A DNA stretch of 49,123 nt from Deltaproteobacteria bacterium (GTDB lineage: Bacteria; Desulfobacterota; DSM-4660; Desulfatiglandales; HGW-15), in NCBI GenBank assembly GCA_019310525.1, contig JAFDEE010000040.1, forward strand, positions 1 to 49,123. The letters are read 5' to 3'. Positions 31,475-39,813 of the stretch are shown one piece after another. Below the pieces are notes generated by a model. It did not search any database. It saw only the letters and a program-made list of their open reading frames with translations, and was not told the origin of the DNA. Every line of letters starts with the position of its first letter. Position 1 is the stretch's first letter. The translations under genes and the position numbers were made by a program.

Positions 31475-31504
31475 TTGGCATTTCCCGCCAGGCTCTGCTA
31501 GGAT
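31475..31504 (+). promoter_or_regulatory. Candidate promoter of the XRE-cupin regulator gene
   Basis: TTGGCA (31475-31480), an 18-base spacer and TAGGAT (31499-31504) sit about 75 bases before the regulator ATG and just downstream of the palindrome. The boxes are moderately good. Confidence 0.4.
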
Positions 31505-31580
31505 GGCCGTTAAAGTTTCATTAAATGCCGTGTTCACCCTGACGGGCGATCGTCGACAAGTTCAAGTAAGGGAACAAAGT

Positions 31581-32105
31581 ATGGAAGGCTTGGGCTCCAA
31601 GATCAGAGAGGAACGAAAGGCCCTGGGACTCACCCTTGAACAATTCGCCGAACTCCTGGGGACGAGCACCTCCATGTTGCAGCGGGTGGAAACCGGTGTG
31701 AGGTCCCCCTCGGTCGATCTTTTGGTCGAGATCGCCAACGTCTGCCGGAAACCGATCGACGAATTCCTCAACAATAAGCCCATCGGGTTTCGGAAATTCG
31801 ACCCTTCAAACCAGAAAACGATCCACATCAGCGGTTGCGATATCACCATTCTATGCCCTTACGGCCTTATCTCAAAGGACATAGTTGTCAGCCATTTCCG
31901 GGGAAAGAAGGGGGCTGAAATCGAACCCCAGCGGCATGACGGGTATTGCTGGGTGTATATCCTTAAAGGAAGTTGCACCTTCGAACACGACGGGGTTCAA
32001 CATGAATTAAAAAAAGGGGACTCCATTTTCTACGATGCGGCCAAACCCCAACACCTCAAGGTCAAATCGACCCTGGAGTCCATCCGGATCACCATCAGAA
32101 GGTAA
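31581..32105 (+). CDS. XRE-family regulator with C-terminal cupin domain
   Basis: A 174-residue regulator. I chose the ATG of MEGLGSKIREERKALG (31581), which has AAGGGAAC upstream; the frame is open earlier. Residues about 5-60 form an XRE helix-turn-helix (LTLEQFAELLGTSTSMLQRVETGVRSPSVDLLVEIA). Residues about 95-170 form a cupin_2 barrel (GYCWVYILKGSCTFEHDGVQHELKKGDSIFYDA), which usually binds a small ligand. The gene is divergent from the AOR operon and 190 bases upstream of the TRAP transporter, so it may control either or both. Confidence 0.9.
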   Translation: MEGLGSKIREERKALGLTLEQFAELLGTSTSMLQRVETGVRSPSVDLLVEIANVCRKPIDEFLNNKPIGFRKFDPSNQKTIHISGCDITILCPYGLISKDIVVSHFRGKKGAEIEPQRHDGYCWVYILKGSCTFEHDGVQHELKKGDSIFYDAAKPQHLKVKSTLESIRITIRR

Positions 32106-32294
32106 CCCTGAAAGTATGGGAAGCGGGCCCCTGAAACGGATCCACAGGGGCGCCCTGCGAGGCTGAAATGTCAACCGGGAATCCAGCCCGATCTCCGAGG
32201 TGAAGATAAAGAGAAAGGGGGTGAGGGAAATACATCGGGCTTTTGAATACGGATTTCCAAAGTAACTCATCACCTATCAGAAGGAGGGCGGATC

Positions 32295-33296
32295 ATGAAA
32301 CAGAGGAAAATCTTTACCCTGGCATGCATCATCACATTTCTTTTGACGGGCATTATGTTGAGCATCCCGGGTGGTGCGGCCCACGCAAAAAAGATCGAAC
32401 TTTCACTGGCCAACGAAGCACCGCCGTTTTTCGTCTACACCATCATCTCCAAAAAATTCAAGGAGATGCTGGAACAGAAGATCGGGGACAAGGTCACCGT
32501 AAAAATCTACCACTCGGGACAATTGGGTGGAGAAAAGGACACCATTGAAGGCGAGATGATCGGAACCGTGGACATGGCCATTGTTCAAAGCTCACTCTTA
32601 GCCCTCTGGGAAGAACAGATGGTCTACATTGACATCCCCTTTCTGTACCGGGACGTAGACCATGCCATCAAGGTGATGAACGGACCGATCGGGCAATCCA
32701 TCAACCGGAAGATGGAAAAACACGGTGTAAAAATCCTCGCATGCATGAATCTGGGTTTTCGCGGCATCTACAATAGAAAAAAACCCATCTATAAACCAGA
32801 AGACGTGGCGGGAATGAAGTACCGCGTGATCCAAAACCCCCTTTACGTAGACCTCATCAATTCCTGGGGAGCAAAGGCGGTCCCCATGAATTTCGGGGAG
32901 GTCTATACGGCCCTCCAGCAGGGAGTCCTGGATGCGGCGGGACTGGAGCCGTACTCCTATGAGATCATGAAGCACTATGAACCGGCCCCCTATTTCTCCA
33001 TAACCAACCACATCTATCAGGCCTTCCTGCTCACCATGTCGAAGAAAAAATTCGACTCCCTCCCCGCCGATGTTCAGGAGGCCATCCTGAGTACAGCGAA
33101 GGCCCTTGTCCCCACGGCCGTTCAGATCACCAAGGACATCGATTATCGGGTCATCGGCAAACTTGTCAGGGAAAACAAGGTCCTTTTCAACGTGGCCGAT
33201 ATCGAGGCCTTCAGGAAGGCCTCCAGGGCGGTGAGTGAAAAGTACTCCGCCAAGGTGGGAAAAGATATCATCGACGCCATCAAGGCAGTGAAATAA
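32295..33296 (+). CDS. dctP: TRAP transporter substrate-binding protein (DctP family)
   Basis: A 333-residue periplasmic binding protein with a signal peptide (hydrophobic core IFTLACIITFLLTGIML, cleavage near AHAKK). Family signs are YHSGQLGGEKDTIEG, the carboxylate-binding Arg in MKYRVIQNP, and NFGEVYTALQQGVLDAAG. Such proteins bind organic acids with a conserved arginine-carboxylate contact. AAGGAGG lies before the ATG. First gene of dctPQM. A hairpin follows, which likely keeps more of this soluble component than of the membrane parts. Confidence 0.94.
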   Translation: MKQRKIFTLACIITFLLTGIMLSIPGGAAHAKKIELSLANEAPPFFVYTIISKKFKEMLEQKIGDKVTVKIYHSGQLGGEKDTIEGEMIGTVDMAIVQSSLLALWEEQMVYIDIPFLYRDVDHAIKVMNGPIGQSINRKMEKHGVKILACMNLGFRGIYNRKKPIYKPEDVAGMKYRVIQNPLYVDLINSWGAKAVPMNFGEVYTALQQGVLDAAGLEPYSYEIMKHYEPAPYFSITNHIYQAFLLTMSKKKFDSLPADVQEAILSTAKALVPTAVQITKDIDYRVIGKLVRENKVLFNVADIEAFRKASRAVSEKYSAKVGKDIIDAIKAVK

Positions 33297-33307
33297 ATCA
33301 AAATGCC

Positions 33308-33338
33308 GGGCAGCCCGGCCGCTCACCCCGGGCTGTCC
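33308..33338 (+). other. Intergenic hairpin after dctP
   Basis: GGGCAGCCCGG (33308-33318) pairs with CCGGGCTGTCC (33328-33338) with one mismatch and a nine-base loop. It lies between dctP and dctQ without a T-run, the usual position for a structure that stabilises the binding-protein part of the message or attenuates the rest. Confidence 0.5.
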
Positions 33339-33360
33339 CGCTTCTCCTGGATCACCGGGA

Positions 33361-33840
33361 ATGCTGGACAGGATAAGTCACCTTCTCAATATCTTTGTAA
33401 AACACCTGGCGGGTCTCCTCACGGCGGCCATGACCGTCGTGGTCTTTCTCCAGGTGCTCTTCCGTTATGTCTTCAACGCGCCCCTCGACTGGTCCGAGGA
33501 GATGGCCACCTTCGCCTTCACCTGGATGGCCCTCCTGGGGGCGAGCGTCGGGCTGAAAGGGGAAGAACATCCCGCCCTGGACATCTTTTTCATGCGGCTC
33601 TCCGGAAAAATTCAGATCTTCGTGAAGACGATCATCAACCTGAGCATCATCTTCATGCTGGTGATTCTTTTCATTTACGGAATAAAGTTGACCCTGGCCA
33701 TGAGGAGTCAGTCCACCGCGGCGCTGGGATACTCCGTATCCTTTGTTTATGTCGTTCTCCCGATCTCCGCTCTCATCATGCTCCTTCACATAATCGTTCA
33801 GGCCCTGGACCTCTTCAGGAAGAAGGAAAAGGAAGATTAG
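33361..33840 (+). CDS. dctQ: TRAP transporter small permease (DctQ family)
   Basis: A 159-residue membrane protein with four hydrophobic segments, typical of DctQ. Visible family features are the first helix with LAGLLTAAMTVVVFLQVLFRYVFN followed by PLDWSEEMATFAFTWMALLGAS. It forms a complex with DctM and has no transport activity alone. It starts 64 bases after dctP and ends four bases before dctM. The ribosome site is weak. Confidence 0.92.
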   Translation: MLDRISHLLNIFVKHLAGLLTAAMTVVVFLQVLFRYVFNAPLDWSEEMATFAFTWMALLGASVGLKGEEHPALDIFFMRLSGKIQIFVKTIINLSIIFMLVILFIYGIKLTLAMRSQSTAALGYSVSFVYVVLPISALIMLLHIIVQALDLFRKKEKED

Positions 33841-33844
33841 ATTC

Positions 33845-35122
33845 ATGGCCCTCACGCTTTTCACAATATTCTTTGTCCTTCTCATCATCGGGGCGCCCAT
33901 CGTTTTCGCCATCGGGGTTGGAACCACCGCAGCCCTCATGGTGGGCGGCATCCCCCTCGAAATCCTGCCCCAGAAGATCTTCTCCGGACTGGCCCATTTC
34001 CCCTATCTGGCCGTACCGCTGTTCGTCCTTGCAGGGATGCTCATGGAGACCGGGGGCATTTCCAGGCGTATCGTGGATCTTTCCAACGCATTGGTGGGTC
34101 ATATCCGAGGGGGCATGGGCATGGTGGTCATGGTGGCCACCATCTTCTTCTCGGATATTTCAGGTTCTTCGGCCGCCGATACAGCGGCCATCGGCAGCGT
34201 GATGATCCCGCCCATGAAAAAAAGGGGATATGACCCGAGCTTCGCCGCGGCCCTGGTAACCGCGGCCGGCGGCATGGGTGTCCTGATTCCGCCCTGCCTC
34301 ACGATGGTCGTCTTCGGCAGCCTTACCAACACCTCCATCGGCGCCCTCTTCCTTGCGGGTTTCGTACCGGGAATCGGGATGGGGCTCATCTTGATGCTGC
34401 TGACCTATGTCATAGCAAGGAAGAAAAATTTCCCGCGTGAGAAACGGGCCACTTTAAAAGAACTGCTGGTGGCGTTCAAACGCTCCTTCCTTTCCCTCTT
34501 CATGGGGGTGATCATTCTCGGGGGGATCATCCTCGGAATCTTCACCGCGACGGAGGCCGCCGCCGTGGCCGTGGTATACGGCTTCTTCCTTTCCGTGATC
34601 CTTTACAGGGAAATCAAGTGGTCCCAGCTGCCTGAAATCCTCTGGAAATCAGCCGTCATATCCGGGGTGGTAATGCTCGTCGTAGGCATCTCCTATGCCT
34701 TCGGATGGGTGCTTGCAAAGGAGCAGATTCCTGTCAAGCTGGCCAACTTCATGCTCGGGATCCCGGGCGGAAAGTGGGTCTTCCTCCTTGCCGTGAACCT
34801 GCTCTTGCTATTGATGGGCATGTTTTTCGACGCCTCCCTTTCCGTTGTCATCCTGGTGCCCATCCTTTTCCCGGTGGCGCTCAAGCTCGGCATCCACCCG
34901 GTCCATTTCGGCACCTTCGTGATCATGAACCTGGGGATCGGTTTTACGACCCCTCCCTTCGGCCTGTCCCTGTTCATCGCTTCGAGTATCGCCAAGGTCA
35001 GGCTGAGTTCCATCATCAAACCCATATTTCCCTATATCCTCACCATGATCGCCTTTCTCATGGTGGTGACCTATGTGCCCTGGTTTTCCCTGGTCCTTCC
35101 GAGGATCTTCATGGGGTACTAG
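33845..35122 (+). CDS. dctM: TRAP transporter large permease (DctM family)
   Basis: A 425-residue permease with about 12 hydrophobic segments. Family features include GAPIVFAIGVGTTAAL near the start, GSSAADTAAIGSVMIPPMKKRGYDPSFAAALVTAAGG, and NLGIGFTTPPFGLSLFIAS near the end. It moves the substrate with sodium or protons. The gene immediately precedes the microcompartment genes on the same strand, at 198 bases, which suggests that the transporter delivers a substrate or a precursor for that pathway. Confidence 0.94.
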   Translation: MALTLFTIFFVLLIIGAPIVFAIGVGTTAALMVGGIPLEILPQKIFSGLAHFPYLAVPLFVLAGMLMETGGISRRIVDLSNALVGHIRGGMGMVVMVATIFFSDISGSSAADTAAIGSVMIPPMKKRGYDPSFAAALVTAAGGMGVLIPPCLTMVVFGSLTNTSIGALFLAGFVPGIGMGLILMLLTYVIARKKNFPREKRATLKELLVAFKRSFLSLFMGVIILGGIILGIFTATEAAAVAVVYGFFLSVILYREIKWSQLPEILWKSAVISGVVMLVVGISYAFGWVLAKEQIPVKLANFMLGIPGGKWVFLLAVNLLLLLMGMFFDASLSVVILVPILFPVALKLGIHPVHFGTFVIMNLGIGFTTPPFGLSLFIASSIAKVRLSSIIKPIFPYILTMIAFLMVVTYVPWFSLVLPRIFMGY

Positions 35123-35142
35123 CGGGGATTGACGATTCGGTT

Positions 35143-35172
35143 TTGTCTTTCCTTTTTGGGAGCTATTATGAT
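35143..35172 (+). promoter_or_regulatory. Candidate promoter for the microcompartment genes
   Basis: TTGTCT (35143-35148), an 18-base spacer and TATGAT (35167-35172) lie in the gap after dctM. The -35 box is only partly consensus. The same -10 overlaps the ATG of a 22-codon open frame (35169-35237) that has GGGAG upstream, so either reading is uncertain. Confidence 0.35.
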
Positions 35173-35320
35173 AGGCGTGGACTTAAAACCCGTTCATGAC
35201 ATTTCTGAAGAGCCCGAAGGGGAAAACTCCTTTTGATTTAACACGAGGATCCCGGGTCGATCCATGCCCTGGAGTATGGTGGGCTCCGGGAGAACCCATA
35301 CACATCCGAGGAATGTTTCC

Positions 35321-36757
35321 ATGAAAAAAGTGATCACGGGAGAAGACGTCCATTTGGCATATAAGGCGGGGGAAAAAGAGATCCGCCTGGGACCAAAGGA
35401 CATCGTTACGAGTGTAGCCAGGGAAACCGCCGAAAAATACGGACTGCGATTTGTCCGGGAAACCGAATCCGCTCCCTTAACCTCAGGGGCTCCGGCAGGG
35501 GCGGGGGTCTTCGTTCCCCGGCGACTGGAGATAGCTGGAGATAGGACTTCCCCCTCCCCGTCTCCTCCGGGCTCTTCTCCCAGCCCGCCCTTTGATATGG
35601 ACTACTGGCGCAAACAGTTTCCCATCCTGAAAGACCGTGTCCATGTGGCCAACTGCTCCCAGTCACCTCAATCCACCTTCACCCGGGATGCGGCCATGGA
35701 ATACATGGAAAACTGGAACAGGATGGGTATGGACTGGGAGCGGTGGATGGAGGAGATTCACCGCTCCAAGGAGGAGTTCGCGAAAATCATCCATGCCGAT
35801 CCGAGCGAGATCGCCGTGGGCACGTCGGTCTCGGAATTGACGAGCGTGGTTGCCAGTTCCCTCCCCCTGAATGCCGGGAGGAAAACCATCGTCTTGACCG
35901 AGGCCGAATTCCCTACCGTGGGCCACGTCTGGCAGGCCACTCGGAAATACGGCTATGACGTCCGGTTCATTCCCGTCAAGAACGGCATGATCGATATCGA
36001 GGACTATGACCGGTACGTGGACGAAGACACCCTCCTCACCTCCCTGTGCGATGTTTACTATTACAACGGTTTCCGGCAGGACCTGGCACGCATCATCCCA
36101 AAGGTCCACGAAAAGGGCTCCCTGGTGTACATTGACGCCTACCAGGGCCTGGGCACTCATCCCCTGGACGTAAAGGCATTGGATATCGATATTCTTTCTT
36201 CCGGGAACCTCAAGTATCTCCTTGGGGTTCCCGGCATCGCCTTCCTATACGTGAAGCGTGAGATCGTGGAATACCTCAAGCCGGCCTTCACGGGGTGGTT
36301 CGGACGGAAGGAACCCTTTGCATTCGATATTCACACCGTGGATTATGCTGAGGATGCACGCCGGTTCGATACCGGGACCCCCCCGGTCCCCACCGCTTAC
36401 ATCGCAAGGGGGGGGATGAAAATCATAAATCTCGTCGGGGTGGACAAGATCTTCCAATGGACCAACGTCCTTTCCGAGCATTGCATCAAGGGGGCCCTGG
36501 AGCGGGGCCTTGAGGTCGTAAGCCCCACTGATCTGAGCATAAAGGCCCCAAACACCGCCATCCGGGTTCCCGGCAATTCCCACGACTTCGAGCTGGCCCT
36601 GAGGGAAGAAGGGGTCATCGCATCGGCCAGGGCGGACGTGGTGAGGATAGCTCCCCACTTTTTCACCACACTGGAGGATATCGACTATGTCCTTGACTGC
36701 TATGTGAAAATCATGAAGAAAATGAAGCTACCTGCTGCAAGCAGCAGGGTATCTTGA
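35321..36757 (+). CDS. Class V aminotransferase-fold PLP enzyme with N-terminal microcompartment-type domain
   Basis: A 478-residue protein in three parts. Residues 1-47 (start at 35321, GAGGAA upstream) form a small domain with ITGEDVHLAYKAGEKEI, then an IVTSVARETAEKYG pattern that resembles segments found in other microcompartment-associated proteins. Residues 48-92 are a Pro/Ser/Gly-rich linker. Residues 93-478 are a class V aminotransferase fold with IDAYQGLG (Asp272 and Gln275) and the PLP lysine Lys298 in SSGNLKYLLG. Such folds act as transaminases, lyases, desulfurases or epimerases; the reaction here cannot be read. It heads the BMC gene set; its last ten codons lie in a palindrome. 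Confidence 0.88.
   Translation: MKKVITGEDVHLAYKAGEKEIRLGPKDIVTSVARETAEKYGLRFVRETESAPLTSGAPAGAGVFVPRRLEIAGDRTSPSPSPPGSSPSPPFDMDYWRKQFPILKDRVHVANCSQSPQSTFTRDAAMEYMENWNRMGMDWERWMEEIHRSKEEFAKIIHADPSEIAVGTSVSELTSVVASSLPLNAGRKTIVLTEAEFPTVGHVWQATRKYGYDVRFIPVKNGMIDIEDYDRYVDEDTLLTSLCDVYYYNGFRQDLARIIPKVHEKGSLVYIDAYQGLGTHPLDVKALDIDILSSGNLKYLLGVPGIAFLYVKREIVEYLKPAFTGWFGRKEPFAFDIHTVDYAEDARRFDTGTPPVPTAYIARGGMKIINLVGVDKIFQWTNVLSEHCIKGALERGLEVVSPTDLSIKAPNTAIRVPGNSHDFELALREEGVIASARADVVRIAPHFFTTLEDIDYVLDCYVKIMKKMKLPAASSRVS
36725..36755. repeat. REP-like palindrome forming the 3' end of the aminotransferase gene
   Basis: AAGCTACCTGCTGC (36725-36738) and GCAGCAGGGTATCTT (36741-36755) are near-perfect inverse complements with a two-base centre. 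The element encodes the last ten residues of the enzyme and runs into its stop codon, so the native C-terminus may have been replaced or extended. Confidence 0.5.
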
Positions 36758-36851
36758 ACGGAATTGCTACGAAGTCGTCCCGCCGTTTCTCCCTGCAGCC
36801 CGGCTACAGGGCATCTTGGCGAAGGCGAATGAAATGATCAGAGGAGGCCCC

Positions 36852-37151
36852 ATGAAACTTTGCAAGGTCGTTGGATTCGCCACCGCCTCCATCAAGGAGG
36901 AGGGGTTGAGTGCTTTCAAGCTCCTGGTGGTAAAAGGTATCGATGAGGAGGGCGTTCCCTCGGGTCAGCCCTTCCTGGCCGTGGACACCCTTGGAGCGGG
37001 TCATTCCGAACTCGTTGCTGTAACGACTGGAGCACCCGCCCTCAATGCCCTGAATAACAAAGACTTGCCCGTTGACGCGGTCATCGTGGCAATCCTTGAC
37101 AGCGTATCCGTAAACCAAAAAGAAATCTACAGCAAGAGCAAGGAGGAATAG
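36852..37151 (+). CDS. BMC-P pentameric vertex protein (EutN/CcmL family)
   Basis: A 99-residue protein starting MKLCKVVGFATASIKEEGL (36852) with GAGGAGG just before the ATG. It is a single Pfam EutN_CcmL-type barrel: the N-terminal beta strand with VVG, the middle FLAVDTLGAGHSELVAVTTG and the C-terminal DAVIVAILDSV. Such pentamers cap the 12 vertices of a microcompartment shell. It is the only pentamer gene in the window and directly abuts the BMC-H gene (TAG immediately before ATG). Confidence 0.92.
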   Translation: MKLCKVVGFATASIKEEGLSAFKLLVVKGIDEEGVPSGQPFLAVDTLGAGHSELVAVTTGAPALNALNNKDLPVDAVIVAILDSVSVNQKEIYSKSKEE

Positions 37152-37442
37152 ATGAAGGCGTTAGGTATGATCGAAACAAAGGGTCTGGTGGGCGCCATCG
37201 AGGCGATGGATACCATGGTAAAATCCGCCAATATCGAGGTCCTGGGCATGAAGGAGATCGGGGCGGGGCTGGTCACGGTCTTCGTGGAAGGGGATGTCGG
37301 GGCCGTAAAGGCCGCTCTGGACGCGGGCGCGGCCTCGGTCAACAAGATCGGCGAGATCGTTTCCGTCCATGTCATCGCCCGGCCGAGTGAAGAAACTCTC
37401 AAGGCGCTCCCCAAAAGAGAGAAACCGGGCAAGAAAAACTAG
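37152..37442 (+). CDS. BMC-H hexameric shell protein
   Basis: A 96-residue single BMC domain beginning [30 protein letters not shown], the PduA/CcmK/EutM signature, with [22 protein letters not shown] and [13 protein letters not shown] following. The pore-loop position between the beta strands reads [10 protein letters not shown], so the central pore is lined by a Gly/Ala turn as in canonical shell hexamers. AAGGAGG ends the upstream gene. It is the only BMC-H gene seen. The repeat element B follows directly. Confidence 0.96.
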
Positions 37443-37449
37443 CCAGTAC

Positions 37450-37646
37450 CCATCCATAAAATAATTTTGGGCACTGGCGAGTTTCCAATCCAGAAATGAG
37501 AATTTTTATGCAAGATCAAGAAAATCAAGGGATTACGCGGAGGCGTACATCTAGTACGCCGCACCTGTCTGCCGGACCAGGCACAGGCAGGCAAGGAATC
37601 CCGCAGATTGATGCAGAGATTGCGCAAAAAGGCCATTTATGGATGG
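37450..37646. repeat. Dispersed hairpin repeat, element B, inside the microcompartment operon
   Basis: A 197-base element bounded by exact terminal inverted repeats CCATCCATAAA (37450-37460) and TTTATGGATGG (37636-37646). Inside are an outer stem (GGGATT 37529-37534 with AATCCC 37597-37602), an inner perfect hairpin (37542-37548 with 37554-37560) and the CCTGTCTGCC palindromic insert. It shares its end sequence, insert and GCAGAGATTG tail with copy A but has different stems. It separates the BMC-H and BMC-T genes and supplies a misleading in-frame ATG ahead of BMC-T. Confidence 0.7.
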
Positions 37647-37677
37647 AAACCAGCTAGTGGAAAGAAAGCGGGTCCTT

Positions 37678-38292
37678 ATGGCTGAGGAACACTTTCAACT
37701 CAGGACGTATGCCTTCATAGACAGCATGCAGCCTCAGTTCGCCGCCTTCCTGGGCTCGGAGCTCGACGGGGACGTACCCCTGGCCAACATGGCGGAATTG
37801 TGGATGGAACTGGCCCCGGGCAGTGAGGTGTACAACCTGCTCGACCTGGCCCTCAAGGCCAGCGACGCAAGGCCGGGTCTTCAAATGGTGGAGAGGGAAT
37901 TCGGGGTCCTGGAAATCCACTCCTTTTCCGTGGAGTCCGTGAAGGACGCCGGGAAGACCATCCTGGAGACCTGCGGGCTGGATATCTCCCAGAGACTCAG
38001 GCCCAAGGTGGTCTCATCGAAGATCATCCACAAGGTGAATCCCTATCAGGCCCAGCAAATCAACAAGAACAGGAAGGGGAATCTCCTCCTTCCGGGCCTC
38101 TCTCTCCTTGTCTTCGAGGTGGAGCCGGCGGCCTATATTGTTTCGGCCGCCAACGAGGCGGAGAAGGCGAGCGACGTGCAACTGGTACACTTCAACCCCT
38201 TCGGCCGGTTTGGGAGGCTTTTCCTTTCCGGCCGGGAATCGGAAATCAGGTCCGCCCTGGAGGCGGCCGTTGCAGCGATCGAAAACCCCTGA
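37678..38292 (+). CDS. BMC-T tandem-domain (trimeric) shell protein
   Basis: A 204-residue protein. I start it at MAEEHFQLRTYAFIDSMQPQ (37678); the longer frame begins in the repeat. The LRTYxFIDSxQPQ start is typical of this shell-protein type. Two BMC-type domains follow: one with LANMAELWMELAPGSEVYNLLDLALKA and VLEIHSFSVESVKDAGKTIL, the second with GLSLLVFEVEPAAYIVSAANEAEK and LFLSGRESEIRSALEAA. Trimers of such proteins look like hexamers and often have larger, gated pores. It is the only BMC-T gene in the window. Confidence 0.93.
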   Translation: MAEEHFQLRTYAFIDSMQPQFAAFLGSELDGDVPLANMAELWMELAPGSEVYNLLDLALKASDARPGLQMVEREFGVLEIHSFSVESVKDAGKTILETCGLDISQRLRPKVVSSKIIHKVNPYQAQQINKNRKGNLLLPGLSLLVFEVEPAAYIVSAANEAEKASDVQLVHFNPFGRFGRLFLSGRESEIRSALEAAVAAIENP

Positions 38293-38316
38293 GGCCTTAT
38301 GGGGCTGATCTGAATC

Positions 38317-39813
38317 ATGGTCTTCATACCCCATTACCTAAAAAAAGAAAGGGGAAAGCCCTTCGTCCCCACCTGGCTGGGGGAGGCCGATAGGCCGTCC
38401 TCCCTTGGCACCGATTCCTTCCCTCCCCTGGAGGAGACCGGGACTTCTCCTCTCTTGCTCAAAGGCGGGGTATGCGTCGTCCCCTATGAGGGACTTTTAC
38501 CCATGGACATCAGGATCGAGGAAGGCAGAATCCTCGAAATAGGAGAAGACCTACCCGAGGCCGGCGCCCGGATCGTGCCCGTCCGAGGAAAATACGTGAT
38601 TCCCGGGATCCTGGACCCCCATGTCCACCTGGGAATCTACGCCGAATTCCAGGACGAATTGGCCACGGAAACCCGCTCTGCGGTGCTCAACGGGGTCACG
38701 ACCATCGGGCTTTATGTCAATTCCGAAGAATCCTATCTCCCAATGCTGGAGGATACGATCCGGCGCATCGGAGAAATCTCCCTGTGTGACGTATTCATCC
38801 ATCTCGCCATCTTCAACCGCAAGCAACTGGAGGAAATCCCCCTTTACCATTCCCGGTTCGGCGTCACCTCCTTCAAGACCTGGATGTGCGGCATCCCGGG
38901 CCTCATTCCCGACGCCGAAGACGACTTTCTCATGGATCTCATGGAAACCGTGGCGTCCCTTGGAAAAGGCGCCGTGTTGAATATCCATGCGGAAAACCAC
39001 CGGGTCGTCGCCCGGGCCACGGAAAAGTTGAAGAGGAAAGATCCCTCCAGTCGATCCCTCTCCACCTGGGAAGAGAGCCATCCTGGGTTTGGAGAGGCCG
39101 AGGCGGTGGAGAGGGCGGCCCGCCTCTCGGATGAAAGCGGAGCGCGGATCTATTTCGTTCACCTCTCCTCAAAGGAGGCTGTGCAATCTGCAGCAAGCCT
39201 CAAGCACAGGAGGAAGAATCTCTACTTCGAAACCACTTCCCCCTATCTGACCCTTTGCCTCGAGCAGAACCTGAATCTCCTTTACAAGATGTCCCCCCCC
39301 ATAAGGAAGCGTGAAGACCAGGACGCCCTCTGGGAGGGCCTCAGGGAGGGAACCCTGGATACCATCGGCACCGACCATACCCCCATGACCAGGGAGCAGA
39401 AAGGTGCGGCTCCGGACGTCTGGGGAACACCGCCAGGTTATCCGGCCCTGGGCACCCACCTTCCTTCCCTTCTCCACGAGGCCGGCAAGAGGAATTTTCC
39501 TCTGGAGCGTCTCATCGAAAAGATGACCGCCGAACCCGCTAAGGTCTTCGGGCTCTTCCCCCGCAAAGGCACCCTCCTTCCCGGAAGCGACGCAGACCTT
39601 GTCATCGTGGACCCACTGCTGGAGAAAGCCGTCACCCACCAGGCCGCGGCATCCAGGGCCGACTATGCCCTGCACGAAGGAAAGAGGCTCACGGGCTGGC
39701 CCGTAGCAATCATCAAGTCCGGGCGGATTCTGGATCCGGTGCAGGGAAGCCAAGGGGTGATGAGAAAAATCGGACGGTACCTGGAGAGGGGGGTTGACGG
39801 GGACATGGGATAA
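38317..39813 (+). CDS. Hydantoinase/dihydropyrimidinase-family amidohydrolase with N-terminal extension
   Basis: A 498-residue cyclic amidohydrolase. The binuclear metal site is complete: His102 and His104 (DPHVHLG), the carboxylated Lys187 (TSFKTWM), His224 (NIHAENH), His282 (FVHLSS) and Asp353 (GTDHTP). Such enzymes open cyclic amides like hydantoins, dihydropyrimidines, dihydroorotate or allantoin. The first 45 residues are extra: a short hydrophobic-basic segment MVFIPHYLKKERGKP and a Pro/Ser linker before the catalytic domain, the layout of an encapsulation peptide. It is the last gene of the microcompartment set, 24 bases after BMC-T. Confidence 0.9.
   Translation: MVFIPHYLKKERGKPFVPTWLGEADRPSSLGTDSFPPLEETGTSPLLLKGGVCVVPYEGLLPMDIRIEEGRILEIGEDLPEAGARIVPVRGKYVIPGILDPHVHLGIYAEFQDELATETRSAVLNGVTTIGLYVNSEESYLPMLEDTIRRIGEISLCDVFIHLAIFNRKQLEEIPLYHSRFGVTSFKTWMCGIPGLIPDAEDDFLMDLMETVASLGKGAVLNIHAENHRVVARATEKLKRKDPSSRSLSTWEESHPGFGEAEAVERAARLSDESGARIYFVHLSSKEAVQSAASLKHRRKNLYFETTSPYLTLCLEQNLNLLYKMSPPIRKREDQDALWEGLREGTLDTIGTDHTPMTREQKGAAPDVWGTPPGYPALGTHLPSLLHEAGKRNFPLERLIEKMTAEPAKVFGLFPRKGTLLPGSDADLVIVDPLLEKAVTHQAAASRADYALHEGKRLTGWPVAIIKSGRILDPVQGSQGVMRKIGRYLERGVDGDMG

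Follow-up and report, generated by a model that had tools for sequence, protein, structure and literature searches.

A EutQ-related N-terminal domain on a microcompartment-associated class-V aminotransferase and its probable role in shell attachment

The microcompartment locus and the architecture of the aminotransferase

The analyzed window, a stretch of 49,123 nucleotides (contig JAFDEE010000040.1, Desulfobacterota), contained a compact microcompartment (BMC) locus at 31503–39813 with two obvious enzymes, a class-V aminotransferase and a hydantoinase, together with an XRE-cupin regulator and a TRAP transporter. The features considered here, all on the + strand, were as follows:

35321–36757, +: class-V (SufS/kynureninase-like) PLP enzyme with an N-terminal domain, 478 aa
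35321–35461, +: EutQ-N-type domain, 47 residues, predicted b-a-b-a-b fold
35462–35596, +: P/S/G-rich disordered linker, 45 residues
35510–35527, +: FVPRRL, the F-x-P motif of the window within the linker
36852–37151, +: BMC-P (EutN/CcmL) shell pentamer (PF03319, 1.3e-23)
37152–37442, +: BMC-H shell hexamer
37639–38292, +: BMC-T shell trimer, probably of the single stacked type
38317–39813, +: hydantoinase/dihydropyrimidinase-family amidohydrolase, second candidate cargo enzyme
38317–38448, +: hydantoinase N-terminal tail carrying the FxPx[WFY] motif twice, as FIPHY (residues 3–7) and FVPTW (residues 16–20)

The genome had only two PF00936 matches, both at this locus. For a comparison with BUF-type compartments, which have a full set of shell genes but lack the core aldehyde dehydrogenase, the ORFs beside the shell genes were inspected, and no aldehyde dehydrogenase was seen among them. 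A description of a hydantoinase-containing BMC was not found in the literature searched. The BMC-H protein of the window retained K53 and D57 and had N in place of Q64 (EutM numbering). K53 and D57 are conserved across BMC-H proteins generally, so that their presence is non-discriminating. In EutM itself, changes of K53, D57 and Q64 abolish the binding of EutQ (PMC4827028).

The open frame of the aminotransferase begins with the ATG at 35321, with an SD-like GAGGA upstream. Its PLP lysine presumably lies in the conserved SGNLKYLLG segment, where it was placed from knowledge of the family. The first 47 residues read MKKVITGEDVHLAYKAGEKEIRLGPKDIVTSVARETAEKYGLRFVRE; the initial annotation had quoted the same segment, but without the leading MKKV and with an end at YG. 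Its description of these residues as unrelated to aminotransferases and joined to the enzyme by a 45-residue Pro/Ser/Gly linker was upheld: the Pfam Aminotran_5 match was confined to residues 131–435, the alignments with PDB aminotransferases ran from approximately residue 89 onward, and P/S/G made up 51% of residues 48–92 (69% for P/S/G/T/A). A 42% identical homologue encoded on a Priestia plasmid, with no annotated shell gene within the 17-kb stretch around it, begins at the enzyme part and has no extension. Since this homologue starts at the enzyme and the Pfam and PDB matches start past the domain, the extension is an added part.

AlphaFold2 predicted a strand-helix-strand-helix-strand order for residues 1–47, with the helices at 7–15 and 31–40 and a mean pLDDT of 84–90 over residues 1–40 in the domain-plus-linker model. 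In the full-length model, pLDDT was below 50 in the linker at 48–85 (mean 25–28), which gives the arrangement of two helices followed by a flexible region that is characteristic of the EutQ N-terminus. A Foldseek search with the mini-domain produced no match at E ≤ 0.001 (best E 0.11), and no structural relative is therefore claimed.

Homology to EutQ and occurrence beside shell genes

Judged from sequence comparison, residues 1–47 are homologous to the N-terminus of EutQ. In a single BLASTP comparison with E. coli EutQ, the two proteins aligned from residue 1 with 33% identity over 54 columns (E = 1e-6), and positions 1–61 of the NCBIfam EutQ model NF012001 matched residues 1–60 of the aminotransferase (E = 6.4e-5). 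A profile built without aminotransferase rows matched residues 1–43 of the window protein (E = 2.3e-9) and six of its orthologues (E from 6e-9 to 5e-4), and the three approaches together placed the homology to EutQ H1/H2 over the whole segment. None of 4856 reversed ORFs was matched by the four profiles at E ≤ 0.01. No Pfam family covers the segment, and single-sequence domain searches against Pfam and PDB gave nothing; profile matches of the domain to PDB were at chance level and were rejected.

In 395 Desulfobacterota genomes, the best matches of the aminotransferase-only profile outside the orthologues were a EutQ-like protein (L024, E = 2.7e-6) and a TIGR02536-like protein with a C-terminal copy of the domain, encoded next to EutJ (L025, E = 0.0025), both in BMC loci. 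Partial matches of this profile over residues 1–19 were, where inspected, elongation factor P and were discarded. A second profile, A2, whose rows included EutQ, EutT, L024 and L025, was used in the same set. All 13 of its near-full-length matches lay 314–2608 bp from a PF00936 gene, with PF00936 present in only 18 of the 395 genomes. The corresponding hypergeometric value for the 12 matches at E ≤ 1e-3 was 7e-19, which is only indicative because the genomes are related. Half-length matches in ORFs of approximately 1000 residues from Desulfobacterota genomes without a PF00936 match were treated as look-alikes. Of 393 Spirochaetota genomes, 13 were matched, 12 of them with shell genes in the stretch around the match; the exception, an ORF of 884 residues, was also treated as a look-alike. 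The initial annotation had named an occurrence mostly outside BMC loci as the outcome that would speak against targeting, and the search of the two phyla (13/13 and 12/13) returned the opposite.

The same architecture was present in aminotransferases from metagenome-assembled genomes of Desulfobacterota and Spirochaetota (L004, L007-L010, L013, L014 and L104). As in the window, where BMC-P, BMC-H and BMC-T follow directly downstream, shell genes come after the orthologous aminotransferase wherever the contig continues. Among the intact orthologues, the domain is conserved (33–59% identity), and the linker diverges in length and sequence. In ortholog L011, the domain is degenerate and the linker nearly absent, the contig ending just past the gene. 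In L012 (3673–4959), the aminotransferase has two in-frame stops, a degraded domain and no linker, and no shell gene was present in the approximately 860 bases downstream on the contig; this is apparently a decaying copy of the system.

Apart from the aminotransferases, the domain was carried by EutQ-type cupins, EutT, the C-termini of PduM and TIGR02536-like proteins, RpiB, malate dehydrogenase, a Fer2_BFD protein and stand-alone proteins. The latter (L105, L106 and L111) are approximately 105–116 residues long; they and the RpiB proteins are what we take them to be from sequence inspection and family knowledge. The RpiB-like proteins (L107:6950-7744, L109:6658-7434 and L114:8947-9711), all from Spirochaetota and encoded beside BMC-T-like genes, have an N-terminal helix resembling an encapsulation peptide plus the domain. 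The malate dehydrogenase of a Methylibium BMC locus (L087:15286-16584) consists of the domain, a long P/A/S-rich linker and the enzyme, and a [2Fe-2S] protein of the Fer2_BFD family (L080:1242-1940) has an N-terminal copy in a BMC locus. Direct BLASTP of the domain against EutT was not significant; its inclusion among the carriers is based on a profile without E. coli rows, which matched EutT only at residues 21–45 (E = 2.6e-4). A plasmid search with the TIGR02536-like protein found nothing, and PduM was obtained via a plasmid-borne pdu operon located with EutM. In this Klebsiella PduM (L085:23583-24074), residues 122–161, the C-terminal 40 or so, matched the domain profile (E = 5.5e-4). PduM was stated in 2025 to have no known homologues outside Pdu microcompartments; it localizes to the core and possesses a separate N-terminal core-targeting helix (PMC12108088).

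Putative shell attachment and alternative explanations

Functional data on Salmonella EutQ come from a published deletion study (PMC12487888). There, EutQ lacking residues 9–41 was off the shell and remained with the cargo, and the protein lacking residues 62–99 remained with shell assemblies. EutQ residues 1–99 targeted sfGFP to BMCs, and EutQ, EutM and EutL bound one another by thermophoresis. H3/H4 catch the encapsulation peptides of cargo, the linker and H3/H4 also mattering, and H1/H2 made no contact with the EutC peptide by NMR; no report on the sufficiency of H1/H2 alone was found in the text consulted. In earlier work, EutQ without its first 100 residues gave no pull-down with EutM (PMC4827028).

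With this background, residues 1–47 can with good confidence be considered a BMC-specific adaptor domain equivalent to EutQ H1/H2, most likely shell-binding and tethering the aminotransferase via the disordered linker. The need for the segment in shell association has been shown for EutQ, and from there shell binding is extended to the aminotransferase domain by analogy. Because the domain occurs almost only beside shell genes and is kin to the shell-binding part of EutQ, the enzyme is probably moored to the shell by its tether. The idea of the initial annotation, a flexibly tethered small domain that targets the shell and resembles segments of other microcompartment proteins, thus gains support from the EutQ homology, the shell-gene linkage and the profile matches to EutQ, PduM, EutT and TIGR02536, with the specification that the module appears to be a folded domain of the EutQ/PduM/EutT type and not a short amphipathic helix.

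In the mechanism suggested by the Eut system, the domain would attach to the assembling shell on its inside, where the parallel with EutQ-EutM/EutL points to BMC-H and/or BMC-T as its partner, and the 45-residue disordered tether would hold the encapsulated aminotransferase at the shell. A separate adaptor would be unnecessary with the enzyme fused directly to the shell-binding part. A 2016 study put the EutM contact with EutQ on the putative cytosolic face (PMC4827028); in that case the domain would be a docking site on the outside, which counts against anchoring from the inner side.

A different signal was considered in the FxPx[WFY] motifs. The hydantoinase tail lies ahead of the region that aligns with solved hydantoinases (matches mostly start at residues 45–54), and it had the motif two to three times in all seven orthologues compared in full. 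An F-x-P motif occurred once in the aminotransferase linkers of the window, L007, L008, L009, L013, L014 and L104, the rest of the linker being unconserved. Against shuffled sequences, 15 motifs were observed in the tails versus 0.1 and four in the linkers versus 0.04, in a test that ignores shared ancestry. Hypothetically, a motif of this type may be a second docking element bringing both enzymes to one partner. That these motifs are the real encapsulation signal of both enzymes, with the N-terminal domain secondary and serving geometry or oligomerization, draws on the same persistence in the tails and in otherwise diverging linkers, but we consider it unlikely: the L010 linker lacks the motif, the window linker holds only the FVP core, the excess over shuffled sequences is blind to common descent, and it is the domain, not the motif, that is common to other BMC systems.

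Even less probable is that the BMC-specific module has the enzymatic core and not the shell as its target, binding either another enzyme or itself, and condenses cargo in the manner of an encapsulation peptide. The core localization of PduM, which has a C-terminal copy of the domain (PMC12108088), and the position of the domain next to an encapsulation-peptide-like helix in the RpiB fusions are in line with it. However, according to the EutQ deletions, the shell is the partner of H1/H2 and the cargo that of H3/H4, and NMR showed no contact of H1/H2 with the EutC peptide (PMC12487888), and the separate core-targeting helix of PduM leaves the body of that protein for another task. That the extension has no targeting function (serving solubility or regulation, or being a relic) and came to lie next to the shell genes by operon hitch-hiking would be in line with L011, with its degenerate domain and nearly absent linker, but is highly improbable given that copies of the domain occur on unrelated proteins across different types of BMC, that it is conserved and the linker diverges, and that L012, with no downstream shell gene on its contig, has in-frame stops and a degraded domain. 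A shell-binding adaptor of the EutQ H1/H2 type remains the preferred interpretation.

Significance and comparison with known systems

The linkage of cargo to the shell is an open problem in metabolosomes. For the Eut system, EutQ was recognized as this linker in 2025, and the kind of element discussed here, the shell-binding segment of EutQ, has been known since the same year; the literature searched contained neither its direct fusion to an aminotransferase nor an account of how widely the domain extends over BMC proteins, PduM among them. The shared domain unites EutQ and PduM and predicts which of their parts touch the shell. By analogy, it marks the aminotransferase as a probable genuine cargo of an uncharacterized microcompartment, and as a folded domain it is a potential new targeting tag for engineered compartments. 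A wider generalization is proposed tentatively: one unnamed shell-anchor domain, spread over the N-termini of EutQ and EutT, the C-termini of PduM and TIGR02536 proteins, stand-alone proteins of approximately 110 residues and enzyme fusions (class-V aminotransferase, malate dehydrogenase, RpiB and the [2Fe-2S] protein) in many BMC types, might represent a second, generally used way of attaching cargo to shells beside encapsulation peptides, acting here jointly with an FxPx[WFY] motif by which both cargo enzymes would dock to one partner.

Among the known systems, the closest is H1/H2 of EutQ from the Salmonella/E. coli ethanolamine BMC, with which the aminotransferase segment shares homology over residues 1–60, the N-terminal place, a flexible stretch thereafter and a BMC locus. 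The difference lies in what follows: EutQ continues with cargo-binding H3/H4 and a C-terminal cupin, whereas in the aminotransferase the segment is joined straight to the enzyme, a disordered linker and Aminotran_5 occupying this place and no cupin being present. PduM and the TIGR02536 'eut_hyp' proteins are matched by the same domain profile, but at the C-terminus of non-enzymatic assembly proteins, PduM having in addition its own core-targeting N-terminal helix. The fusions with malate dehydrogenase (L087) and RpiB (L107, L109 and L114) likewise join an enzyme to the domain, the former in identical part order; they involve other enzymes and other BMC types, with the helix resembling an encapsulation peptide added at the N-terminus of RpiB. 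Finally, the classical encapsulation peptides of PduP, PduD, EutC and EutE are also terminal elements connected to a cargo enzyme via a flexible linker, but they consist of a single amphipathic helix of approximately 15–20 residues, in contrast to the 47-residue mixed alpha/beta mini-domain predicted for the aminotransferase.
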